Assembly: GCA_014871385.1 (NCBI GenBank) | Contig: CM026429.1 | Location: 13,429,783-13,493,782 of the forward strand | From: Ceratodon purpureus | Lineage: Eukaryota; Streptophyta; Bryopsida; Pseudoditrichales; Ditrichaceae | DNA: 64,000 bases | Reading direction: 5' to 3' | Shown: in pieces, positions 27,147-45,086 of the stretch | How positions within the stretch are numbered: the first letter of the stretch is position 1 | Layout: the number at the start of each line of letters is the position of its first letter | Position numbers and translations under genes: made by a program | Notes under the pieces: model-generated | The model's input: only the letters and a program-made list of their open reading frames with translations | Database searches by the model: none | Told to the model about the DNA's origin: nothing

Positions 27147-30002
27147 ATGCTGACAATGGACGTTACAGAGATGGTAAGTGGAGCATTTCCGATTATGAAT
27201 AATCAAAACGTCAATGTACATGCAAGAGTTGCCTAGCTTATTATCTCATAGTGCTACCCTAGCAATATTCTGTTGTAAAGGAGAGTCCTCTCAATATTTT
27301 TTTTAACATTTCCTTTCGCAAGTGGTATATTTGAAGTCAATGATATATCTGTGCAGACTATGGACGACAACATGTATGAAGCGAACCCGCATACCGAGAG
27401 TGACCGTCTCCATACTCCAATGCACGTAGGATCTCATGGAACGAACGCTCGCCCTTTGGCTGCGCCTCTGAACGTGCCGGTCACTGACGCACCTGCAATG
27501 GCCGCGGCGTTCATGAGTAATCCAGTAATGGCGCAAATGTTCCACATGTTCAACGCTGCTCAATGTTCACAAAGCAGCATGAACCAGTATACACAATATT
27601 CGCCTCTCTTTCAGACCCCTCCTCAGACGGGGCAACATGGGCTTTCAGCGAATGCAGTACGTCAGCACCCTCGCAGTCGAGGAGCACAAGGCGCCAAAGA
27701 CGGAATACACATGGGACGCACGTGAAGATGTACGACGGGGAGTAAGTGATGCACCAAGATAGCAGGCAACTCTAAAGAGAACAGGAGCAAGCGGGAATTT
27801 AGCCGCTCAATTTTCTAGTGTGCAAGGCCCAATGAGCTCTGTGTATCGAACAGACGGAGGTATGCACTGACTGGATCAGATGCCGAACATGTAGGATGGA
27901 GTTGGGGCGGCTGCTGTTGCCCCGACTCTCCTGGGGCACACCGTCGTTGATGGATTCAATGGGAGTCGGAATCAGCACCGAAATTTCTTGAGGCGACAGA
28001 GGACGGAATATCAGCGAAACCAGCGGAATAACCTTGGAGGTGGCGGAAGGATACACATACCTATAGATGCTGACGGCAACGTCACTGCACTCAAAACTTT
28101 TCTGAATCGCGCTATCAAGGACGTCGCGGGAAAGGTACTCGACGTCAACATCAAGGAGTTCAACCAGCACCCACCAGGGCTATTTCTAGTCATCCAGCAC
28201 GACATTGACAGTCAATTCACATTCGACCCGCCGCTCAAGGAAGGCTACATCAAAACATATCTTCAAGATGCGCTTAGTTGGACTAGATACTAGTGGAGGA
28301 GTTACTGGAGGAAGAACGGTGGGCGTCACCCCGCGTGTCCTCCCAAAAGATTTCTTACGCTTGTGGCACAGTGGATGACAGAGGCTTCAATGCTTGAAAG
28401 CGAGAGAATGAGTGCGGCGAGACATCGTAGACGCTCCACCGGAGCCACAAGCGATGTTGGAGAAAGGTCTTTGGGGGGTCCGGGAGGGGTGACGGACGCA
28501 ACGATTGTGCCTCAACAGGTAAGCACTGTACTCATATACATGTATGTATGTCATGGACGATGACAGTTTATCAAAGTCGCTTGAATTGTAGACTAGAAGG
28601 TTCTATTTAAACAGTGATTGTTTAATTAGAAATAAACCACGAAAAAGTGTGTACATGTCGTACCCCATAAAGGTATGTTGGTGTAATGTATAAAGTCATG
28701 CACTTCATATCACGTTATGATCCCATGACTGCGTGTCTAATGTTTAGTTCATTTCCGGACAGATGGACGACATTATCTCTGATGGCCACTTATTTGATGA
28801 GGTCGGAGGCGTAACAGGCGAAATACAACCAGATGGAGGGAACATGCAGGGAACCCCGTCTGTCCCTATTTCACTCCTGTCAGAACGAATGAACACCCTG
28901 ACTCCTTCACTATGGTCTGAGAGTAGGGCCGGCGATGGAGCTCCCAGAAATGCAGACCTTGCAGACGTACTAGAGAAGCAGCAACTCGACTTTGCTGACA
29001 TGAAGCTCCAAGTGACGCGGACGAATGAGAGGGTGGAGCCTTTGGAAAGAGAGTCAAAGAACTCCAACCTCGCTATGTCTCAAAAAATTTGGAGACATCG
29101 ACAATTTTTGACGACATGTACTCAATCTTTCCAACACCGTGAAACACCTAAGTGGAGATAGAAGAGTGTCGTCGACTAGGAATCCTAGCAATATCGCATT
29201 AAGTGCGAGCAACGTTCCGGCACCAACTCCAAAAATGACTGGGAACGACATGGAAGTCAAGACGCCGAGAGAAGATTAGGTTGTCCATGATGAAGAAGGC
29301 AAGGTAATCACAGAGGAGTTTAGAGAGTATGAAGGACTAGAGGACTCCCGCGGTCATCACCTCCATTCGAACTCCGAGGGAGGCAGTGCTGACGAAGAGA
29401 ATGAAACACATTACAGCGATTTTACGGAGATGCTAGTAACACGAACTGACTCACCAGAAGGTATGGTCTATAACTTACGTGAAGTGTCATGCAATAATAA
29501 GGCTAAGTTTCTATAGGAAACTCTTAATCTGACATAAATGGGTGACGTTTTTGTTCAGGGTTAGTACGTAGTGATGTATTGAAATGGCGGAGGCTGCCAG
29601 GTTCCGCCACTGGAGCTAGTAGAAGACGTCGTGTCGCGACATCCAAAGTACATCCACAGTACCGGCTGGAAGTTCACTAGAACGCCGTAAGTGAGGCAAT
29701 GCAAGCTGCAGAGAAGGCACTGCAGCAAAAACAAAGTAGACAGAAACGAAAACCGAAGAGGCTAACCGAGGAGGGAAGAACGCAGAATCTGTCACCGAGG
29801 ACGAGACATGTGAGTACCGCACTACTGTTCTCGTATTGAAATATATGTGATAGTGGATATATATATCACCTCCAACTAATGTCGTTCCATACATTGAGAG
29901 ATACCTGTACTACACAGAGGCTTCGTTGACACGAAGTTGAGAAAAAAATGTTTAACGTGTGAATCTGACTTAATCAGGACCTAGTGCGGATGCACAAGGA
30001 TG

Positions 30003-30442
30003 CATTAGGGGAAAAATGGGGTCTCCACAAGGCCTTGTAAGACAGCCCGGATTAGGTGAGCTTCCTGCCCGCTGACACTTCTCTACGAAATCTCATTGGT
30101 GGATATCCTGCCCGCTGACAACAAAATTCGCCCCGCTGACAACAGGATTCGCCTTGCTGACAACAGGATCCGGTACTGTCCAAGGGGGTGACAGCAGTGG
30201 GCACACGCTCGTTGACAGTGTCATTACTGCTTGTATTGTCCAATGACGTGACAGCAGTGGGCAACGCCTTTGCTGCAAGCGATTGGCTAGACCCCCCAAA
30301 TGCCAATTGCTGGCACTGCTGGCAGCATTTGGCGACCTGCTGGCACCATTGGTGCCAGCAGGTAAAGTGCACGAGCATGGCCTAATTTTTAGGCACGGAT
30401 TCCGACCAAAGGCCCTTAGGAGACCCCAATCTTCCCCTAATG
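30003..30442. mobile_element. MITE family 1, copy 2 (440 bp)
   Basis: Same terminal inverted repeats as copy 1: left CATTAGGGGAAAAATGGGGT, right ending CTTCCCCTAATG. The interior is nearly colinear with copy 1 and has an extra CGCTGACAACAGG-type unit. Open frames on either side (HKD before it, VWILQMEH after it) join in phase if the element is removed, which implies insertion into an exon. Confidence 0.85.
30337..30361. repeat. 25-bp palindrome inside MITE copy 2
   Basis: Identical to the palindrome in copy 1: arms CTGCTGGCACCA and TGGTGCCAGCAG around one base. Confidence 0.85.
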
Positions 30443-30717
30443 TTTGGATACTACAAATGGAACACCGAGGTACCGCGGTTGCTAAGGGGAGGTCTGGCGT
30501 CTATTACAAAGTGCCCAAGTCTAAGTTACCTTTGGACAGGCCATGCAAAACAGGTATACAGTGGGTCTCCATGGAGGATGTGTTTGTGGTAGGGGTGGCT
30601 CCGATGTATGCTGCAAAACAAGTCGAAATGCGTGTGATGGAAGACGCTCTGGCATCCACTAGCACCAGCGTCACATGGGTAAAATGGAATGCAAAGTATC
30701 TCCTGGAGATAGCGTAG

Positions 30718-31879
30718 TAATGGATTTGAAGGGGACAGATATCTTGGGCTGGCCAAAATTGTTTAATAATTCTGCACCAAATGGGTAGGATATGGGCCTG
30801 CTAGCAATAGTATAGTTCACAGAAGTCGTTTGTATTCATGATGACCCATTTTGGTGTTATGGACAAGGGAGCTTGGGGATACTTTTAATTCAATTGGCTA
30901 ATTCCCTGGTGCTCACCATAGCGATTAACTTGCTTTGGCTGACATCGTATGATAGGCCGCTGATTTTAAATATGGTATCATTCAAGCCTCTTGGGATGTT
31001 TCGGTTCCAAATAATATGGAACCAACTTTTGTAACTGGCGAAGCCGACTTGGTATCGATAGTGTGTGCTTCTGAAACCTAGATTACACTTCCGCATGTCA
31101 TGTGTCTTTAGTGTCGCTGTCAGTTTAGTGGATATAAAGTAATATGAATCAACGCCTGATGTTAAGTGGGAGGTGTAAGTAGGCATGAATCACCATTGTA
31201 CTGTAGATGTGTAGTTCCTATGAATATCAATCAGCTACTGAGGACGACAGATATTCACCTCCAAATATGTTTCAATGAGCAGAAATCATTTGCCGCACCA
31301 CAGCTTACCTGCTTGCCGAACCATATGCATATCCGAATTTTCATCGATTAGCAGAATACAGAAATATTCCCGGAATGCTATGGCCCGCATTTCCATCAAA
31401 ATGTAATTTGTCGGTATACTGTGCATTTAATCAACGGTCTAAACCATGGTAGATCGAACGGTAACTGTAGAATGACCATGTCGGTCCATCACCGGAATCG
31501 AAACATGTACCGACAGAATCACCCGAGGTGGACGGCATTGAAGAACTGCATCTCACGGCCTTTAAGTAAAGCATCGTACGGACAAATCATGATGGGTATG
31601 GAGAAATCCGTCGGCCCAAAACGTTCTCATCGGACGGACCTCGTTTGAATGATCGGAGGATGGTTCTTACAGAATGTATAGCAAATGAGTTGCCTCCAGG
31701 TCGACAGCGAAGATAATCTGCATCTTATGGCTCACGGGGAAAGAATCCAAAGGCCTAAAAGCCACACATCGTAAGGTCAAGGCCAAAACCATCGGACGGA
31801 GGCTCCCTACTTTATCCAAGGGCTATGACGTTGACAAGTGGACGCTCCACATGGTATTGAATCTGCGGCTCCTAGTAAA
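30718..31879. other. Intergenic, no gene recognised
   Basis: Short frames only. Moderately GC-rich in the part 31400-31860, possibly old repeat DNA, but no family is identifiable. Confidence 0.4.
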
Positions 31880-32747
31880 TTAACCCCTAAAGGACAATTG
31901 TCCTAGAATGGGCTTTTTAAAAATTTGGGCAGGTTCCTAGAATTCCAATTTAATTTCCAAACCTTTGAAAAAAATAATGTAGGTAGGCATTTTGAAGAGG
32001 TTTGTGTACAATTTTTTTTATTTTTTTTTTGAATATACTGAAAAAAAGTTACAGGGTTTTGATTGTCAAAAGTTGCATTCAGCCAAACTTCGGGCAAACT
32101 CACAGCCACTGTGAATGCAGCAAATTCTGCCCAAAACTGCCCAAAATTGCAAAAAATCTGCCAAAATCTGCCCAAAGTTGAAACTTTGGAATTCCACCAA
32201 AAATTGAGATTTTGATATTTTCAAAAACAAAAATTTCTATGTATAGAGAAGGCAGTAAAGCATGTTTCCACCGTTCCGATTTTTAATCCAAATTTTTTCA
32301 TGTGCTATTTTTATTGTCAAGAAACGGCCTTTGTTTGTGAATTTCAGTATACCCCCAAGCAGAAAATGATTTTTTTGGCAACCTACACAACTTTTTTTAA
32401 TATAATTTTTTTAATGCCATTAGCTAACTCAGTCTTCTTTGACGTGCATAAAAACCTTGAAAATCCACAATGCAAAAAAATGGTTATTTGGGCCTTCAAA
32501 ACTCTGTTGTTCCCTTTTTGCGCAGGGAAAAAAAACTTGTTTTTCAACTTTGAACTTTAAGATCTTGCAATCGATGAGGAATGAGCGTGTAAGATTTGGT
32601 GGACATGTAGACATAGAAGTTAGCTACAAGTTCTTACGGTTAGATGTACTAATTAAAACCCCAACTTTGCAAAATCCACCTTGCTTTGAAGAGGGGCTGT
32701 TTTCAGGTAGTTTTGAAGAAAAATACCCTCAGAACTTTAGGGGTTAA
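31880..32747. mobile_element. piggyBac-like non-autonomous element, copy A
   Basis: An 860-bp element (31884-32743) bounded on both sides by TTAA (31880-31883 and 32744-32747). Ends are CCCCTAAAG and its exact complement CTTTAGGGG. TTAA target sites and termini beginning CCC are the signature of piggyBac transposons. A 14-bp perfect palindrome, AGGACAATTGTCCT, sits just inside the left end (31891-31904). No transposase is encoded. A relative with the same left palindrome, right end and interior blocks lies at 47080-47884. Confidence 0.7.
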
Positions 32748-33710
32748 TCGAACGGCATTGTGGCCTTGAATCCAACAAACCATATGAAAAGAATTGGGCG
32801 GTTGCAACTGAGCGCTGGAATAATGATCCTGCGGCGGTAGACGTGCCCCGCCTTGGAACCGTCGAGCAGCTCGGGCTACTCCGTCGTCTGCCCTTACGGA
32901 GGGGGGGGACACTGCCATGGTAAATCAGAATGGCTAATTCGTGCTACGATGTGGGGAGGGTAAGCGGGGTTCCCGAGTCCGAATGTTGTCGCATGTACTG
33001 GCTTGTTTCACTCGGTTGCCCTCGCATTTCAAAAGTTCCAGGACGCTAGAACGGTACCAGTCCAGTGCATTTGGAGTGAAAATCCGACCTGGAGAAAGCC
33101 AGTATTTGGACTTAAAGGCATCCGAGTGAAAGGGGATGTCTGTAACACATTATTTAATGATGTCTGTACACATATTCTGGTCGAATTCCCCTACGTCACT
33201 GGCACAGTGCCGACAATTTACTATAATTTGAGAACATTATGATTCAGAACTACTGTATTCTCATGATCGATCAAAGGATCCGGATTCCGGATCAAACCTG
33301 CCTTTATGGAGAGTGGCCCGGAGGATATTCATTTCCATCCGACTGACCCATCCGGATGGGTCCTAACAATCCTCTCCGCCAAATAGTTCTCCTCCTTTCC
33401 AGCTTGATAAGTCTAACAAGAGCTGGACCGACGAAATTAAACAATTTCTGTGTCTGTACACTTTGGTCTGTGCAGACTTTTTAAGACAGAGGATCGTCAC
33501 AGACAGTTTCTTAAGCTAGATTTGGAGAAATAAGGTGCCTGCCATAATTACAGACAGTTCCTAATCAGATCTCTGCCTCTGCCACATACATAATATCTAA
33601 ATGAGAGTGAGAATTCTTTGAGCATTCTTTTGACATGCTTTGGATTTGAGCGCTTGACGAACTAGCTGAGCCCCAATCAGCACATAGCTTGATTTGCAGT
33701 TCTATCAGCC
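32748..33710. other. Upstream region of the AAA ATPase gene
   Basis: No gene is recognised. The final part should hold the promoter and 5' UTR of the gene starting at 33711. No clear TATA element was singled out. Confidence 0.4.
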
Positions 33711-36700
33711 ATGGAAGATCCGGACGTTGGTACCAAGGCAAGGAAATTGAGTGATGGTGACTCGAGCATGAAGACGAGGGTCAACACCTTCTTCCTGAAT
33801 GAAGCATATGGGTCCTTCTTTCTGAACATGATTGCCGACGTTGTGGTCAGGTGCATGTGTGCTATCCTTCTACCCCTGCTTGGCTGTTGTCTCGCCTTTG
33901 GTTGTTGCCGGAAAGGCAAGAAAAGGAAAGAGGGGTTTTCCAAGCGACAGCTTCAGCAATTGAGTGACATATGGGAGGAAAGAGGGAGAGCCATCTGGGT
34001 GTCCGAATTTGCAAAATTGCTGGAGGCTGATCACAGCCACTCTGCTGCAGAGAGCGAAAATCCTACGTCTACGTCTAGTACTAGCCAGAACTTGAAGAGT
34101 CATGGAAGTGAAGTACTAGACAACTTCAGCAGAGATGGTGACGACAATATAGTTCCTGACGCAGTTTCGCATAGTCCGAAGTTAAACGGGTATGTGGATC
34201 AGATTCAGACACCAGAGAAGCGGCCACTGAAGGCCGATGTGAGAAAGCGACCGAATGGTGTGATTAAGCAATTGCAAACAGACTCGGATGGGAGATTTGT
34301 GAAACATGGAGACACACCGGGAGGCATGATGTCAGGGGAGGCGGCAAGTACGTTAACTTCAGAGAAACTGTCGGTGGAGCCTCGATCAGGTTCAACGTCG
34401 TCGAGTGGAGGGAGCACTACCGGGATTAGCACTGGAGTACTTGGCTGTGCACAATACGAGCACATTCTGGACATACCAGTCGTTGCTGTGCTTCCGTCGT
34501 CGGCAAGCTTGGAGTCGGGCGATGCTTTGAAAGGGATTTTTAAGGTAAAGTTGGCCATCAAGTTTATTCAAGACATGTGTTCCTCTCGCATCCTGCAGGC
34601 CTGGGTGAAGCCAACTGGGGAAAACTTGAGAGCTTTGCGTGATCTGGCTGTGGAAGGCATGAAAATCGACAAAGAGTTCACCCTTCAGATTGACAGATTC
34701 TTCATGTTCCACTGCAAAGGTGAGTTCCTTGATTCATATGTAGGGTGATATCTTGTTTTGTGGAATCTGAAGCATATTGAGATTTGGAGCTGAGCATTCG
34801 GACGCTCACCATGACCTCAAACCTATTCCACTTCACATTCCACTCTTCATTCCACCCCATGTAGCGTAGAATTTATCTGGTATATGTTTTCAAGTTAGAG
34901 ACCATCCCTGACATTTCACTGTTCCAGATAATCCGGAGGAACCTGTCTTGTTAAGTTTGAGAGACGTTGAAGTGCCTACTATTCTACAAGCAGAATATGT
35001 AGCAGGTATGCACTTTGTACAAAGCCCTTCAAGAATTCTTTACAATTATCATGATGAGATCACCATTCAAGCTTAATATCTGGGAAGCAGGTTTCAAAAC
35101 ATTCATCAATTCAGAACCAAATTATGTATGCCACTTCCAGGACCCCTCATTCTCATCGATGTTCTTTTGGTGTTATGTGACTGATTAGGAGTGCTGACAA
35201 TCAAAGGGCACTATCTTGAAGGAGCAGAGATCAGAGCAGCAACCTTGGATGAATATCTGATATTGCATCCAGAAAAACAGGAGAAGGTATTGTATATTTA
35301 CCTTGTCTCAGAGACATTCAAATGGGCTTCAACCTGCATAAAGTCTTGAGGTCTCTTCCATTATATGTACTAGAGTTATTCAAAAACCCACATTGTCTCA
35401 CCAATATTTAACCCATTTCTTTCTTCACCTCATTTTTGTTTTTAATTGGACCTCAAATAATAATGTAAGAATATTCCACCCACTTGAATGAAGCACAAAT
35501 TTAAATGCAATATTCTTGAAATAAGATGAGTTATCAAATAACTCAAATGTAGAAATTAAACTGCATGATTTGAAATGTTCGTTTCATGTGAGAGGTGCCA
35601 TATTATATTCTTTATGTATGCAGGGGAATGAAATTGAGAAGAGCCCAGAAATTGAGGAATGGAGGTGCACTAACCTTCTTCTACCAGCCAAGCTTGACAA
35701 GGTTTATGTATTTGCAAGCAAGAAAGTATGCATTCAAAAGGAATATGTCACTGTCCGCAGCGAATCATCACCTCTGATTGATAACACCATAAGCACAGGT
35801 GCACATTGATTCTCTTAGCTCTTAGTGGGACTTTAGTTCTCCAGATTGAAATTAACTTCTCTAGATTGAAATTATGATGATAATATCAACTGTAAAAATT
35901 CTTTGTAACGAAATGTATTGAATTCTGTTGCAGTGATGCGGGAATGGATACCAGCAGCAATCTTGATTCTGTTCACGTTTCTGAATTTGTTACAACTTAT
36001 GGCAACAGTCATGAATTTTTCAATGATTTTACAGTTTCCTCAGCTTTGGCTCCCACATCTTACTCCTGGTCTAGTGATTTACATCCTACAAATGTTGCCA
36101 TCAAGGTACTCTACTCAAAGCATAAATAATGTTCATGTGTTATTCATAATTTTCATTTTCTAATTAAAGTTCTCAACAAGAAATTTTAATGGATTTTGAG
36201 TATAGATATTTTGAATACCAATGTAATAGACACACAATTCTTGTAAATTTTTCATTGCCTACGAGTATTCAAAGGAATTCTTTATTTAAAAATATCATGA
36301 TGACAACACAAATAAAATTCTCCATACACTATGATGACTAAAAATCCAAAAGTATGTATTATCTTTTTTTAGATTAAGTAAATTTGGGACCTGCATTAAT
36401 TTATCTGATATTGATTATATCTTTATTTTTAAAACCAAAAATTGCTTTTATAACACCATAATAAATAAATAAATTGATTGCATGTTTGAATTAGAAAAAA
36501 CTAATACTTTAAAGGATTATTAATATCCACATGTTTATTTATGTATAGATTGTGATTCATTTAGCATGTTTTTACTCATAAGTTTGTCCTCTGTTGACAG
36601 TGTGGAGACTGGTATCCAAAGTTTGGTGAATCAACTGAAGATTTTCTTTGCCATTTTCAAGTTTAGACCTCTCTTGGAGTCAACTTTCACAAAACGCATG

Positions 36701-37155
36701 AATGGTAAACTAACAAATGTTTTCAATTATATCTAGAAAATATTAAATGTATATTAAAATTTACAAATTTTAGCTGACTAAAATTAAGTTCAATACAGAT
36801 TCCATTAAGTATATCTTGAACATTGAAAAATATATGATGTCCTTTGCAAAGTAATTAATTTCCAAAGTTAAAGTGTACCACTAGATTTGAACATTATACT
36901 TGTATTTTCAAATTCTAACTATACATGCTTTCTTTCTACAGCAAATTCTATTGAAACAGCAAATTCTATTGAAAGAGATTCACAATCATCTTCATCCATA
37001 AACGCAAAACACATTGGAGATAAAGGTATGGAGGAGAAAAGGAAAGATCTTACCAGACATCAAGGTAAGTTAATTCCTGCATATAATTTTCTAAATTTAC
37101 AATTACAGTTTAATTTTAATACTTTTTAATAATTCTTCATATAATTATATATGTA

Positions 37156-37249
<94 letters not shown>

Positions 37250-39388
37250 GTATTTTTTTATATTTTTATATTGTTGTTTGTTAATGAATTTTCAGGTACA
37301 GGGAATCAATCTCCAATTGATTTGGATTGGAAGTGGATGACTTTAAAACAAAAATACTCAAATTCAATGGAAGATTGGGTTACTTTGCCTACAAAATCAA
37401 CAAAGAAAGAATTGGAGACTTTGCCACCATTTGAAGTGATATATCGAGTAAATCGAAGGATCTTCAACTTGTATTCAGAATTTGAAAGAAAGGGAACGGA
37501 CAGTGGCTCAACAAGTGTTTTTGTGAAGATTTTTTCTAAAGGCTTACAAATAATACTGCAAAAGTTGATTCCTCGTCATTTGATCGTATTCGAGGAGTGT
37601 GCGGAAATTGAAGCCAAATATATTTTTCAAGTCTATTTACAAGGAGCCTTGAACAAAACCATGGACTTTGACGCTATTATTTCCAATGATGTATTATCAG
37701 GTGAAGTAATCAATCTCAAAACATTACAGTTACATATCTTTCATTTGATACGGTTCATTGAAAGTGAATTTGAGACTACCATATTACAGCATCAAAAAAT
37801 GATCAATACTGGCGTTATTTCTTGGGACATGTTGTGGACTTTGTTTCAAGAAAATGAAAAAGTTATCTATTATTGTGATTTGTCAAAAGAGGAACTTTGT
37901 GGAAAAGTACTGTCATCACAATACATAAGAGGAGAAGCCAATTCAAAGCAAATTAGGCCAAGTTTTTTTATTGAACTGGAAGTATGGGACTATGATTGCC
38001 TCAGTTATGAGCCAAAAATCATTAATCGCAAGATTTCTGAATTTTTTCAAGAGCGGAATATATCAAGTCTAGATGTTCAACCCATCAAACTTCAAAAAGA
38101 CGTGGCCAAAACAGAGACATTCTTTTTAAATCGGGGGAAAATGTATCACAAACTTGTTTTGAGCACTGAACGTCAATTTATGGAATACAAGGGAACCATG
38201 TTTTGGTCATTTATTGACAAATTTCGTTATCGTGGCACATTTCCTGCTGCTCACAGAGAAAGTATGGATGGTCGAGTGATGATTGATCAAGGAAGCTATG
38301 CAAAAATGAAATCACACCGTTATATGGGCACTGCACAACCTGCAAATGGTTGGATGCAAGGTAGCTTGGAGAGGGACAAAAACTTGCCTACTGAAGATGA
38401 CGCAAATCTACAATTTGCTCCAACTATAGTGTATGGATTTTCCTTTCCCTTGAGGAAGTGGGGGTGTTTTTTGATTCCTCAACTTGAAGAGATTACATTC
38501 AGTCCAACAGCTTTTGATACATTGGTGATGAAGGAAGAACAAACAAAGAAAATGCTTCTTGCAATGACAGAACATTTTATCAAAAGACCCAAGCAAAGAT
38601 CTACAACCAAAGAAAGGGTAGGCTCAGTGGATCCATTACCCAACAAGGGAAAAGGTTCTATAATTTTATTACACGGACCTCCTGGAACAGGTAAAACTTT
38701 GACTGTTGAGGCTCTTGCAGAAAAGATGGAATGTCCTTTGTGGCAATTAAGTGTTTCAACACTTAAAATGAAACCCAAAAAGTTGGAAATAAGGCTTATG
38801 AAAAAATTTGAAATAGCAGCACTATGGGGGGCCATCATGTTATTGGATGAAGCTGACGTTTATCTTTCTCCACGGAACTATTCACCATTAGCACCAGATG
38901 CTAGCAAAGGAAATGCTCTCACAGGGGTGTTTTTAAGGATACTGGAGTATTACAAAGGTATATTGTTTTTGACAACCAATCAGATAAATCATTTTGAGCC
39001 AGCAATTTACTCTCGAATATCTTTGTTTGTAAAGTATGAAGAATTTGACTTAGAACAACGCCGTCAATTATGGAACAATTTTATGAAGCGTGCTGGTATT
39101 GAGAATGTAACATCTACATTCTGGAAGGAGGTTTTGCCAATACAATTGAACGGACGAGTCATTCGAAACATTGTGAGCAATGCAGAAATTCTTTGTGAAG
39201 GCCAAGGAAAACAACTCAATGAAGACTATGTATTGGAATCTCTGCGAGTGATGACCCATGTTACAATTAGAAGTTTATTTTCAATTGAGGAAAAAGGAGA
39301 TGAAAGAGATGGCCAAGATTCTATGTCACTTGGTGGTTCTCTCAATATTCATCACCAATGGTCAGTGTCGGATAATCAATCAGCATAG
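33711..39388 (+). CDS. Membrane-type N-terminal region joined to a fungal-type AAA+ ATPase
   Basis: Eight exons: 33711-34719, 34928-35005, 35189-35286, 35624-35798, 35934-36105, 36601-36704, 36942-37064 and 37296-39388. Phases agree at all seven junctions, giving 3852 nt and 1283 residues; the start GCCATGG is in strong context. Residues about 30-62 are hydrophobic (VVVRCMCAILLPLLGCCLAF) followed by a basic patch; a second hydrophobic stretch lies around 455-510 (AAILILFTFLNLLQLM). The part from 60 to 580 has no recognised family. The C-terminal 700 residues form an AAA+ ATPase: YKGTMFWSF, GRVMIDQGSY, Walker A GPPGTGKT at about 1047, Walker B LLDEAD at about 1102, sensor TTN and arginine-finger-like SRI. 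This order, with KGKGSIILLHGPPGTGKT, LEYYKGILFLTTN and a preceding DUF7025-like region, is the pattern of a large fungal ATPase family. Function is unknown; two adjacent genes remain an alternative. Confidence 0.65.
37161..37246. repeat. (AT)43 microsatellite in intron 7
   Basis: An 86-nt uninterrupted AT run inside the last intron (37065-37295) of the AAA ATPase gene. It creates a false open frame of alternating Tyr and Ile that extends the ATPase exon upstream. Confidence 0.97.
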
Positions 39389-40969
39389 TGAACAAGATTT
39401 GTATAGCATCATTATTGTAAAATTTTATGTGATTTGTTTTTTTGGAGAGAAAGATGTAGACTCCCACCTTCAATTTTCTTTCTTGTTGAAAGGTTGAAAC
39501 CATGTGAGAGAAAGTATGGCAACTATGCACTATCATCACAAAGGTTGCATCAATAGCTTGCTTGTTGTATGGACAAAGCATACAAAGAATGCAGAAGAAA
39601 GAATTCATGTTCAATTAGATGTGTTTTCACAATAGAGTGTCCACTTGTTTCAGAAATTTAATTCACACAATGTGTAACAAAAATACAGTCTATGGGGACA
39701 CAATTAAGCACTTAAGCCTGATTGAGAAAAAAATTCAAATAGTATCAGTTGAGAATACCGTACCCTAGGGTCAGCTTCGGCACCCCTTGGTCGAATAATT
39801 AATTAATTTCAAATTTTAATGTCCGACACCTAAAAATAATATATTCTCAATTTCCGACATCTATTTTTGGAATTATTTTCTGCCAAAGCTGACCCTTGGG
39901 TAAGGTACATGGAGTATTTTTTATTTAACCCTGAATGCCCACGATGATTTCAAAGCAAAAATTGCCGTTCAACAACTCTTTGTAATGCAAGTTATTTTTT
40001 GAAATTTATTACTTTCCTTGGTAATTTTAACTGTATGATTTTACAACAAACTTATTGAAACATTCTTTTTTAACATTTTAGAGGGAGAAACAAAATTGAT
40101 TACAAGATTGTAATGTTTAAAGTTGAAAACAAATTCTTTTCAATCCTTAAGAAAATTAAAATCTTACCTTCAATGAATTTTCATAAAAAAACAATTTTGG
40201 CTTTACCTTACGTCAAGCGGTCACATTGATAAAAACGTATTTTATTACAACAATATAATTTTTGGAATGAGAGTCATATGAAATTTTTTAGTGAGAGTGT
40301 GCTAGAACACAATTTGGGTGACTTACAAGAAAACAAGTCACTTTTATTAACACATTTCTAATTATCTTGAGTGATCCTTGGAAAGATATGCTCAGTTACC
40401 CGGTCATTCAAGCAGGAATTTCTCTTGGTACTTACATCAATGGTAGATACCACTTCAACCATGATCTTCAAATTTTCAGCTAACTTTCAAACTCTACTGA
40501 CTTTGCTAAACAATTCTTGAATCTCTCTCCTAAAATGATGAGTTATTTACTTGTACAAGAATTGTGTATTTTAAAATGTTGTCAGTAGAAACTATCCATT
40601 GAGCTTGAAGATGTGTTTGGATTGTTTATGAAGGTCATAGTGGTTACATCATGAAAAGAGATTGAATATGTATGTTTAACTTGTAGCAAATTTGTTTAAT
40701 TTGGGCCATTGGCCTTGGAGTCACATGATGAGCAAACTATACTTCTACATGGTTAAGATGGGCATAAACTCATGAATAATTAAATATGTCTCTTTAGACC
40801 CTCTTAAGAGAAGTAGAGGGGATCACAAACGCACTATCCGTGATGGCATGAAGTGTCAAACAAGAAATGACCGTGAAAAGATGTTAGCTATAAAAGATGT
40901 TTAAAATAGATTTCAACTAGTTACTTTAATTTTAGAATTAAAAAACTTTGAAAAATGCTAATTTGTCTT
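39389..40969. other. 3' flank of the ATPase gene and AT-rich spacer
   Basis: No gene is recognised. Short frames near 39258-39614 are shadows of, or directly behind, the ATPase 3' end. Confidence 0.45.
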
Positions 40970-41225
40970 GGTTTTCTCCTAGTTTGATGTACAATTCTTT
41001 CAAATTCAATGGAATAAAAATTCATTTCAAAAAAAGTAAAAAAATATTAAAAAGGTGAAAATGGACATTAAAAAGTAAAGGAGTTTAAAAGAAGTTATGA
41101 GAAATAGACCCTAGGTCGTTCACATTGTCATGTCTCCAGGAATGAGTTTTGGTCGTTGGCGTAGTTCCAACATATAGAAACAGTGGGCAATGCTCCATCT
41201 ACAGCCATAAGGTCCAAATCACATA
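40970..41225. repeat. Diverged copy of the RAE1 5' flanking region
   Basis: This stretch is colinear with 50671-50935, immediately upstream of RAE1. Shared blocks include GTTTGATGT, TTTCAAATTCAATGGAAT, a series of AAAAGTAAA units, GTTCACATTGT, GGTCGTTGGCGTAG and GCCATAAG, in the same order and spacing. The RAE1 coding exons are absent here. Confidence 0.75.
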
Positions 41226-42782
41226 ATTCCCTACGTGCTTGCACTTCCACCTTTATATCCTTCCAAATCCCTTTCCTAAGTAATTGGAGTTAATCCTATA
41301 AACATACTAGCTACGGTAGAAAATGTATTGAACCAAAAAAATAGCCTCGTTAAGATGTTTTTGGTTTCTTTGGTTTCTTTAACATCTTACAATTGCTATG
41401 AAAAATTGACGACAACAATTGAACAATCACCTATTACCGGATCTCTCTTATTATAATATGTATGGTGCAGAAACACTTCTGCACATAGCTCAACATATAT
41501 TGAAGTAGGCGCTCTATATTCTCTATTCAAGGTTGAAGGTGGAAAGAGAAGTGACAACATTAAGTCTGAGAACAATGTTTAACCTTGTAGTGCCCAAGGT
41601 GGTTAAAAAGAAACCACTGTTTTTTGGTTGATGTATCTTTAAAACTTTCTTTGATGAAATTAGTGATATTATTTATAGTATCCAACCGTATGAATGGAAG
41701 CATAGCTTAATGAAACAAGTGTTGTTTAAATTTTGGTAAGATTGGATTGTTGAATTGGAAGATTATAACATGTCCTTGATCTACTTAATTAAGCTCACTC
41801 AAAATTGAGATTTTTGGAGGTCTGTGATGAAAATTTAAAAGTGAAGATGTTCAGTAATGGCCTGTATCAACACATCTTCATTGCAATCTTTCATGTCAAG
41901 AACACACTCATGTATAATTATTGTAGATTTTATAAGTAAGAGTGACTTACCCATATACCGTTTAATACATAATTTATTCGTTAAAATAAGAAAAGAAATG
42001 GTACATTGATCAAGATCATAATATATACACTATTAGAACATGAACAAGAGAATACAATCCAAAAAATATATATAAGATAAAAAAACTTGCAAACACAAGA
42101 AATACCACATAGTACATGGGTCGTATTTGTGAGTATTTGTTGTATTTTGAGGTATTTGCAGTGTTTTGATATTTTGTACATGGATATTTGAATAGCTAAG
42201 AAAGTCAGATTTCAAATTTTCATTTTGCATCACCCACAAAACAAAAATTGCACATATGAACTTTAAAAGTTGAACTGAGATGTTCACAAATTTTGCGTCA
42301 TTTCATTTTCTAGTGATCCAGTGACTACTTAGTGGGCGCCTGGGGCATTAAAGGGTTAATAAGATGAAAATTCCCACTCCTGTTCAATTAAGATTCAACA
42401 TTTTTATTGTAAATCTATGGTTTGGTCATTATTTTGAGTTTATTGGATTAAATGAAGTGCACTTGTTTCCAACCAAGATTGCTAGTGGATTTTTTATTTA
42501 ATTTAATTTTTTTTTGAGTCAAATGGTGGAAGTTCCATTGCCATTGCTAGTGGATTTTGAGTTGAAAAAATCGGATTGGAATGCCACTATTAATTATAGA
42601 TGGATGGAGTGCCTGCAAAGGCTGACAATGATCAACCAGTCATCTGGTTTGATTAGAGGCACAAGATAAATTTGAATGAGGAATGAGTTCCTTGAGACAA
42701 GGGTTGGGATTGAAGTTGGGTGGAGTCCAAATAGACCTCAACTTCTGTTACACCATAAAAGGTTTGCTGCTTGGAAAACTAA
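41226..42782. other. AT-rich spacer
   Basis: No gene is recognised. The text around 41500-41900 looks like eroded coding or retroelement sequence, but no motif is clear enough to name. Confidence 0.4.
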
Positions 42783-42969
42783 TACTCCCTCCGTCTCACT
42801 AAAAGAGTATGGTTTGGTAAAATAATCTCTCTCAGAAAAAGAGAGTGGTTTCTAAATTTGGCCAACTTATTTCTAAAATTTTCCAACTTGTTTCTAAATT
42901 TAGAACCGCCCTTAAATCTTCTATTACCGTATTAGCAAACAATGCTCTTTTAGTGAGACGAAGGGAGTA
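42783..42969. mobile_element. Stowaway-like MITE (Tc1/mariner type)
   Basis: A 183-bp element (42785-42967) flanked by TA on both sides (42783-42784 and 42968-42969). The left terminus is CTCCCTCCGTCTCACTAAAA and the right terminus is its reverse complement with one mismatch (23 of 24 positions). CTCCCTCCGT with a TA target duplication is the classic Stowaway signature. No coding capacity. Confidence 0.92.
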
Positions 42970-43189
42970 TTTATTTATTTTGAAAAAATAAGGTTTTTTT
43001 TTTAAAAATTGTGTTTCTCAATTTTTGTTTTTTACAAAAAATTAGTGAAATTGACCTTAAATGGCTCAGAAATAAAAAAATATTGCAGAAAATAATATAT
43101 CTTATTTTGGTTTTTTATGGGACCTTAAGGAAGCGCCTACGCTCTCAACATTGGGAGCGCAGACGCTCCCTAAGATTGCAACGACAATC

Positions 43190-45086
43190 CCACGTTCTCA
43201 CAGAAGTCTTCACTGGTCGACCAACACTGTAACTTGTGTATCAGTATTACATATGGAGCGGCTCTTCCGAAGGTCAGCTGAGGGCGAAGGTGGCTTGGGA
43301 CACGGCGGTGATCCCAACCATCAAGGGGGGATCAAATTTTTTGATCCTTACGCCCAATCAAGAGCGCTGCTGGCCAAGATGGTTACCCGAGCGATGACAC
43401 CGAGGCCGGAACCTTCGAAGACGTTGATCCGCTACAGGGTCTCGAGACTGCAGCTCAGGAAGGATGGAGACTGGGCTCAGGCGGAGTTCTGGCTCTGCTC
43501 GGCACCGAGAGTCAAGCCAGACGGCTCAAGGCTCTGGCTTGCTATATGGAAGGCGTGGACTTCAGTTCGGCCCAGAATTATGAAGCATAAGGCCGTAACC
43601 CCTGTTGAAATCCTTAGGCAGCCCCTGTATTTTAACCTAGAGGTGCTGGCCGGTCCTTCCAGACCGTTTGGGGCAGAACATAATTCACTTTATGGAAATT
43701 GGAGCCGCAAGGGAGTCAATTACATCAAAGATATCTGGTTAGAATCCGAGCAAAGGTTTCTTGGCGTTGAACACCTTAAAACTCAGACCAGATCTTGGCA
43801 CGTTGTCCTGCTAAGGAACAACATTATTAGAGAACTCCCTTGGGATCTTACCAATCCGAGACCCCTACAGCCGGGAGACTGGATGGTAGATGCAAGCGGC
43901 AAGTTCTTTCAGTTACGGGTCTTCGATGAAGGGAGATGGCAAGCGACCTCTTACAGCCGGGATGGAACTTCGGAGTTACTGATCCGGAATAATCAGCCGG
44001 CTTTCGTAATCCCCTCGTCCTCTCTCCAAGAGGCCAGAATAGTTATGAAGAACGATGAAGGCAAGGTGGCTGGCTTCAACCCCAAACCAGAGTTGCTTCA
44101 AGGGAATCCGCTACTGGCATACCGATCTGGGATCCTCAAGGACCTCTCCTTCGACCCGAAGGAATGGTCCTGGAAGCGACAAGGAGTGATGAAGTCGACC
44201 AATTTCTTCGACTACAGTACCAAGCGAGGGTACAGAATTATTATTCGAGAGCAGCCTCAAGTGGGATGAAGAGATGGAGTCGAGAGGCTATCCTCCGGGA
44301 CAGAGAAAAGCATACTTTGAGAGGCTTTGGCACCAATGGCTGCCAAGACGCATCTCAGCGATGCTCTGGCTCACGATTTCTGGAGGCCTGCCGTTGGGAG
44401 CGTGGAGGCGCCGAATAGGCCACACAGGCTTGTGCAACTTATGTACAGGTTCGCACTTAGAAACGGCGGAGCATGGCCTTTTCCTCTGTCAGGCAGTGGC
44501 TCCTACCTGGGCAAGGGTGAGAGCAATCCGGACCTTAGCTCGCCTTGAGCCGGGTATCCGCAATTGGGAGGAGGCTCTCCATGGAGAAATGGACAAGCCT
44601 AATACCTCAAGAGGGCGACAGCCCGAGCCACACTCCCTATGGGGTGCTAGTCGCACCTCTTGCAAAATTGCTCTCAGAACACCCTGGGACATTCTCAAGT
44701 CTACACTTCTGTACATGATCTGGTGCCACAAGGTTGGCCACGATTTCAACAACGAGCACTTTCACATTGGAGCGGTGCTTTACAGAGCGTGGAAGACCAC
44801 GGTTCAGACTGGAATGGCAGCTTGGAAGGAACTTCAACGATTTAAGAAGAAGCGCTCTCCTGACAAGCACTCAGCAATGGAACAACTCTTTATGTCGATT
44901 TGGAATCAGGGTGAACTCTTTTGCTCTGGGACTAGTTCCCCGACCTGGAAGCTGGTTCCCCATCCCGAGTTCCTCACTAGGGAATTCGCTAATCGATTCC
45001 ACTCCTTTGAGACCCCGGTGGTTTCTTCAGCTGAGATCTCTCAGCTTGACATTCTGTCTCAAGTCAATAGAAGAGCAGAATCTTAG
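43190..45086 (+). pseudogene. 5'-truncated LINE ORF2, C-terminal part with zinc knuckle
   Basis: C-terminal part of a non-LTR retrotransposon polyprotein. The first frame (to 44269) is the post-RT region: FFDPYAQSRALLAKMVTRAM, LIRYRVSRLQL, then WARKG-like NWSRKGVNYIKDIW. A 1-nt shift near 44220-44250 leads into the second frame (to 45086): SLKWDEEMESRGYPPGQRKA, FERLWHQWLPRRISAMLWL and the zf-RVT knuckle CNLCTGSHLETAEHGLFLC. Endonuclease and reverse transcriptase domains are missing, so the copy is 5'-truncated, as is common after incomplete reverse transcription. The region is GC-richer than its surroundings. Reading frames are otherwise clean, which suggests a fairly young copy. The clade is not determined. 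Confidence 0.85.

Follow-up and report, generated by a model that had tools for sequence, protein, structure and literature searches.

Our analysis indicated that the gene at positions 33711 to 39388 (plus strand) of a 64,000-nucleotide stretch of the Ceratodon purpureus genome (contig CM026429.1; the whole stretch is hereafter called the window) belongs to a gene family about which little is known and whose copies have multiplied in this genome, and is not a one-off fusion. In this gene, a DUF7025-AAA half appears to be joined by splicing to a preceding membrane half that matches no known family. The occurrence of the same join in several copies, together with relatives of the motor in viruses, points to such a family, and the gene structure, domains, catalytic residues, and family-wide architecture could be established by sequence comparison. 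Our preferred reading, to which we assign a probability of roughly 0.55, is a single spliced gene of this expanded family whose product would be a membrane-anchored, ring-forming AAA+ remodeller or switch.

Gene structure

The structure of the gene, rebuilt from the DNA sequence with exact exon borders, comprised eight exons in a single frame of 1283 codons with one terminal stop and none internal, and all seven introns were of the GT-AG type, confirming the in-phase model of an earlier note on this DNA. Exon 1 (33711..34719) carries the start codon, the first membrane segment (33840-33896, from hydropathy), a variable linker, and, at its end (about 34470-34715), the first conserved block of the N-terminal half, B1. 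Splice rebuilding and block profiles assigned exon 2 (34928..35005), exon 3 (35189..35286), and exon 4 (35624..35798) to blocks B2, B3, and B4, and, with hydropathy, exon 5 (35934..36105) to block B5, a hydrophobic hairpin. Two connectors follow, exon 6 (36601..36704) and the poorly conserved exon 7 (36942..37064), the latter placed by splice rebuilding and comparison with L020, the closest other copy of the gene; exon 8 (37296..39388) contains the complete DUF7025-AAA half, recognised by Pfam and alignment, and the stop codon.

Codon comparison between the window gene and L020 revealed more differences at the third than at the second position in the AAA half (0.60 and 0.31), in exons 2-5 (0.54 and 0.27), and at the end of exon 1 (0.50 and 0.23), which suggests selected coding sequence beyond what chance would give. 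Hardly any constraint was evident in the exon 1 linker (0.67 and 0.57), and little in exons 6-7 (0.64 and 0.48). The L020 model, with splicing chosen by frame and alignment score, encodes 1299 amino acids followed by one terminal stop, and its exon order is that of the window, with introns of phases 1, 1, 0, 1, 2, and 1 linking both halves. Four of the first five window introns lie at the same aligned position and phase as in L020, and the third lies within five residues; window introns 6 and 7 face one L020 intron, placed elsewhere. For three further copies, candidate junctions were available at 4 of the 5 (L039), 3 of the 3 (L040), and 3 of the 3 (L041) places tried, a check that asked only for the window's phase; these candidates are consistent with the window structure but are not independent evidence for it.

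The gene family in the moss genome

Searching the genome (151 contigs, 362.5 Mb) with the AAA half by tblastn returned 35 rows at E up to 10, the first 24 of which (E up to 1.5e-4) were family loci, and the DUF7025 model returned 16 rows, 14 over the cut-off. Sixteen loci with DUF7025 and/or AAA relatives were recognised (the window, L020-L022, and L038-L049), spread over contigs C1, C2, C3, C5, C8, C9, C10, and C11 with local clusters. The other copies share 31-47% identity with the window, and in the 8 copies that were aligned an uninterrupted frame encodes the AAA half. Eight loci, the window included, have the same front half, in which a membrane segment is followed by a conserved region without a known family and then by a hydrophobic hairpin; five of these loci are apparently intact (the window, L020, L039, L040, and L041), and three are decayed (L021, L022, where the AAA part is a remnant, and L045). 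This recurrence, together with the stop-free linked model of L020, supports the earlier claim that the two halves belong to one gene, and the same eight loci, five of them apparently intact, speak against the accompanying idea that a host membrane protein captured a fungal ATPase in a single event.

In the window-type loci, blocks B1-B5 were found in order upstream of the AAA part on the same strand, with the full model and then with five short profiles. These profiles were seeded with the window, L020, L039, L045, and, for some blocks, L021 or L022, so that matches to seeds arise by construction; this applies to several of the loci in which B1 was detected (L020, L021, L022, L039, and L045). 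Among the non-seed loci, L041 matched B2 at 0.0056, B3 at 0.0012, and B4 at 1.9e-5, and L040 matched them at 0.0037, 0.13, and 0.19, respectively; in both, B1 was read by eye and by alignment and the B5 hairpin by eye. L042 has one membrane segment only, L044 has a truncated front, and no N-terminal half was present in the stretch examined at L038 and L046. Decayed copies comprise L021, L022, L038, L045, and L046. The truncated AAA copy at L044 (C5:10187100-10197000) adjoins long open frames of DNA-transposon-like appearance, judged by eye.

DUF7025 was also joined to kinases. At L043 (C5:10151000-10160900, minus strand), a 1225-residue frame encodes a kinase domain (E 1.2e-29), then DUF7025 and AAA. 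At L047 (C2:18.43 Mb), L048 (C2:11.83 Mb), and L049 (C8:3.18 Mb), a single frame carries DUF7025 (33.2-36.1 bits) and, after it, a kinase match but no AAA, and a further kinase frame lies 156-254 bases upstream. These joins suggest that DUF7025 is an exchangeable module in this genome.

The N-terminal half

No Pfam family exceeded its cut-off in the N-terminal 587 residues, where the best match at E up to 5 was Prominin (E 0.13), and a PDB sequence search with this half gave nothing convincing (best row, E 0.59). Hydropathy indicated a strong membrane segment at residues 44-62 and another at 462-480, in agreement with the earlier description of hydrophobic segments in a half of no recognised family. 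That description had also suggested a host membrane protein as the source of this half; in searches of the genome in which only the best candidates were scored, none was found to stand alone beyond short exon-2-like pieces. All 8 matches to window exon 1 (one weak, E 2.95) and all 7 matches to the L041 N-terminal half fell at family loci, as did 14 of the 21 matches to that of L039, the remaining 7 being exon-2-like pieces of 33-39 residues. These pieces occur at 7 unlinked places, each inside a 43-residue frame (C1:7137369, C7:9296168, C6:110463042, C6:89461940, C11:9220724, C11:6361166, and C13:6133888), and may be carried by a mobile element.

Domains and catalytic motifs of the ATPase half

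Exon 8 encodes, in order, DUF7025 (37790..38092; residues 154-254 of the AAA-half query), a middle region (38093..38650) with DGRVMID-like and GFSF..WG-like signatures common to the phage and viral-contig relatives, an AAA+ core (38663..39028), and a lid region (39044..39223). Both DUF7025 (E 9.9e-16, 58.3 bits; cut-off 27) and AAA (E 8.8e-14, 52.5 bits; cut-off 21.2) exceeded their Pfam cut-offs, and the core, located by Pfam and alignments, has Walker A, Walker B (LLDEAD), sensor 1 (TTN), and the arginine of SRI, with catalytic residues invariant across two family alignments. The domain order proposed earlier for this half is thereby borne out. The lid gave a weak match to the fungal family AAA_lid_13 in the window (16.5 bits; cut-off 27) and scores of 18.0-20.1 bits in L039, L040, L041, L042, and L044, and at E 0.01 was not among the matches for L020 and L043. 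Fungi are the organisms from which DUF7025 was described; compared through Pfam models only, the window protein shares with the fungal-type proteins (PF22942 and PF00004, lid PF23232) the domain order and scores above the curated cut-offs, but differs in its sub-cut-off lid and its membrane N-terminal half. In the open-access literature, we found no paper on DUF7025 and none on Ceratodon purpureus together with an AAA ATPase.

Classical threading unfoldases (p97, FtsH, and katanin) have a hydrophobic-x-glycine pore loop 1, which one sequence alignment did not show in the family: the aromatic residue was present in 0/8 family rows and the glycine in 0/8, compared with a hydrophobic-x-glycine loop in 11/11 rows of classical AAA proteins of this genome (aromatic in 8, leucine in 3; two of the 11 are duplicates, as L001 and L002 overlap). 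Most family rows have an LGxxPxxLE-like motif at this place, one residue shorter, and none of the 8 has the two-residue spacer before the arginine that occurs in 10/11 classical rows. Like Bcs1 and Msp1, the latter among the profile matches, the window protein combines a membrane anchor with one AAA domain; unlike them, it has DUF7025 and the middle region between the two. Bcs1, too, is not known to have an aromatic pore loop. Pfam listed no Bcs1-specific N-terminal domain, either for the AAA half at E up to 1 or for the N-terminal half at E up to 5.

Against the NCBIfam equivalog of the anti-phage ATPase IteA/IetA (cut-off 510 bits), the window protein scored 33.7 and the phage protein L161 56.6 bits, both below it; matches to defence models (IetA, TRIP13, and DolB) were confined to the AAA part. 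Solved structures likewise matched only the AAA part in PDB sequence searches, PDB fold-search rows spanned residues 387-650 and neither DUF7025 nor the middle region, and a phage-moss profile found no PDB chain at E 1e-15.

Relatives in phages, plasmids, and viruses

When viral sequences were initially scanned with only the window protein as the query, nothing was found. With the family alignment, IMG/VR relatives matched well past the AAA core, and further relatives came from queries with the middle region and the Walker B-to-sensor region (for the latter, the best 80 of 109 confirmed rows). Among the 99 viral-contig loci examined, several of which come from the same contig, 62 matched the DUF7025-middle profile at E 1e-3 or better, representing 38 distinct proteins; 30 of these matched at 1.1e-28 or better, including the partial L167 and L196 and the profile seeds L050, L051, and L052. 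In this test, which covered only frames with a Walker-like motif, the match was not found in the other 37 loci, L169-L171 and L178 being among them despite their matches in the middle-region scan. In the three tested of these viral-contig relatives, which include L050, L051, and L052, DUF7025 (28.4, narrowly, 48.8, and 44.1 bits; cut-off 27) and AAA both exceeded their Pfam cut-offs, as they do in the window. The IMG/VR relatives are single frames of 533-658 residues where complete, in which a membrane N-terminal half was not noted; virus type was checked only for L050-L052, whose neighbours were phage-like by eye. Many DUF7025-AAA-like genes lie on the viral contigs (loci L050-L053, L164-L179, and L182-L261), some of which reach 465 kb.

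Three of 11 matching records from named phages, all Rhizobium phages (RHph_X66, V1VFA-S, and B1VFA), covered 72-74% of the AAA half at 30.2-31.2% identity, and the other 8 covered the AAA part only. The Rhizobium phage proteins are single frames of 593-596 residues without the membrane half, share the middle-region signatures with the window, and score 67-68 bits for AAA in the two tested. Among the 30 plasmid matches listed of 253, the best, from Methylobacterium indicum, covered 54% and matched the DUF7025-middle profile at 5e-60 (1 of 8 records); none of the other 29 reached the DUF7025 region. In two of the Rhizobium phages and the plasmid, Pfam DUF7025 remained below the cut-off of 27 (21.1-21.6 bits, E 2.7e-4 to 4e-4), which counts against a clean family claim. 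Foldseek identified seven giant-virus proteins (E 1.5e-40 to 2.1e-26) over 486-752 alignment columns, more than the AAA core. These AAA proteins, from Klosneuvirus, Hyperionvirus, Terrestrivirus, Homavirus, Yasminevirus, and Mimivirus LCMiAC01, resemble the window protein in fold, with 18-26% identity, TM-scores of 0.43-0.57 on the query, and root mean square deviations of 5.5-21.9.

In three samples of bacterial genomes, the DUF7025-middle profile matched 0/397, 0/395, and 0/398 (about 1190 with slight overlap), an empty answer that alone shows nothing and has the Methylobacterium plasmid as its only positive control. The best 80 of 214 confirmed rows of a genome-contig scan (at least 593 stretches) included none spanning residues 151-254, the match of L146 starting at residue 255, and the PF22942 model found 0/14 control genomes. 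Taken with the phage, plasmid, and viral-contig matches, the empty bacterial samples suggest that, among prokaryotes, DUF7025-AAA is carried by phages and mobile elements. The label "fungal-type" given earlier to the ATPase is too narrow for a family with relatives in phages, a plasmid, and viruses.

In a tree of 8 moss rows and 30 phage, viral-contig, or plasmid rows (leaving out L166 and L169 for their long branches and L167 and L196 as partial), the moss rows formed one side of a branch supported at 100/100, with the Rhizobium phage proteins opposite. Within the moss rows, support was 95/92 for the group of the five bearers of the N-terminal half and 100/99 for that of the three rows lacking it. 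An earlier 21-row tree that included L166 and L169 agrees. Since the tree is unrooted and has no fungal rows, both gain and loss of the N-terminal half are possible, as are several donors.

Function and alternative explanations

Judging from its domains and motifs, the protein is likely to act as a membrane-tethered AAA+ remodeller. The single N-terminal membrane segment would anchor it and the conserved region of no known family would lie on the ATPase side of the membrane, followed by the hydrophobic hairpin, DUF7025, the middle region, and one AAA+ domain. Subunits may form a ring at the membrane face, where the N-terminal half and DUF7025 would recognise a membrane-associated partner, and ATP binding and hydrolysis would drive a shape change by which this partner is remodelled or extracted. 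The family rows examined do not show the usual hydrophobic-x-glycine pore loop, and for this reason the protein would be expected to remodel a folded partner or to act as a switch rather than to thread an unfolded chain.

Several points weigh against this interpretation. The D1 domain of p97, the nearest solved fold, has leucine for the aromatic residue, so the pore-loop contrast, itself drawn from a single alignment with duplicated control rows, argues only weakly against threading. Oligomerisation and substrate are guesses. The gene model derives from DNA sequence alone, and identity to L020 is poor in the linker (0.26) and in exons 6-7 (0.24), making these borders the least certain. L020 has an extra membrane segment (493-511) where the window misses the threshold, and for this reason a second hairpin crossing was not called in the window.

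Of the alternatives, the one that survives best, though we consider it unlikely, is a signalling or immune-type receptor in which DUF7025 would be an input or switch recombined with AAA+ or kinase outputs, the window gene being a membrane-tethered sensor with its ATPase as the switch. Plant NLR proteins likewise recombine an ATPase switch with other domains. The kinase-DUF7025-AAA frame of L043 and the DUF7025-kinase frames of L047-L049 fit such a scheme, as do the low identity between copies, the decayed and locally clustered copies, and the unseen threading loop; on the other hand, the catalytic set of an active ATPase is intact, and birth-and-death evolution is not specific to immunity. In a more speculative and doubtful extension, mosses would have taken up a DUF7025-AAA gene with phage and giant-virus relatives and turned it into lineage-specific membrane and kinase receptors, with DUF7025 as an exchangeable sensor and an AAA+ ring or kinase as the output, NLR-like but built on a different ATPase.

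Less probable still is that two adjacent genes, a membrane protein and then an intronless AAA gene, were wrongly joined. The AAA half lies in one 2.1-kb exon with a G+C content of 0.37, against 0.50 in exon 1, a long AT repeat precedes it, and exons 6-7 are weakly conserved. However, the pair recurs in the same order and strand at all eight loci with the front half, although at L022 the AAA part is reduced to a remnant, and the L020 model links the halves by introns with no internal stop. In addition, the uninterrupted AAA frames of L040 and L041 begin weakly like window exon 6 (17-19 columns; scores 30 and 24), although the same comparison with L039 gave no sensible match.

The one-off event envisaged in the earlier note, namely the capture of an AAA gene from fungi downstream of a host membrane gene, now seems very improbable: the fungal name of the lid family, the fungal description of DUF7025, and the single open frame of the AAA half in 8 aligned copies would suit it, but the shared architecture, the fact that searches of this genome scoring the best candidates found no stand-alone N-terminal half beyond exon-2-like pieces, and the phage, viral-contig, and (by fold) giant-virus relatives do not. 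Least probable of all is a decaying or non-functional relic, a fate seen in the five decayed sister copies but at odds here with 1283 open codons, intact catalytic motifs, and codon-position bias.

Genomic surroundings

Contamination was ruled out because the gene is flanked on either side by genes of plant type (GH9, FAD/ALO oxidase, starch synthase, and LRR kinase) and because the family is spread over eight contigs. At 44193-45083 of the window, not far from the gene, an open frame with a zf-RVT reverse-transcriptase zinc-binding domain marks the remnant of a retroelement. L009, immediately left of the window, shows by eye an FtsH-like frame of 1013 residues (a separate AAA type) and a channel-like frame. 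Rfam gave nothing at the gathering threshold in window positions 30000-43000.

Significance

Collectively, our findings indicate that a family labelled fungal extends to phages, viral contigs, moss, and, by fold, giant viruses, and that the moss members add a membrane half not described before or, in other copies, are combined with kinases. The recruitment of mobile ATPases by plants can thus be studied in a defined family, with an uncharacterised conserved N-terminal half whose membrane role is testable.

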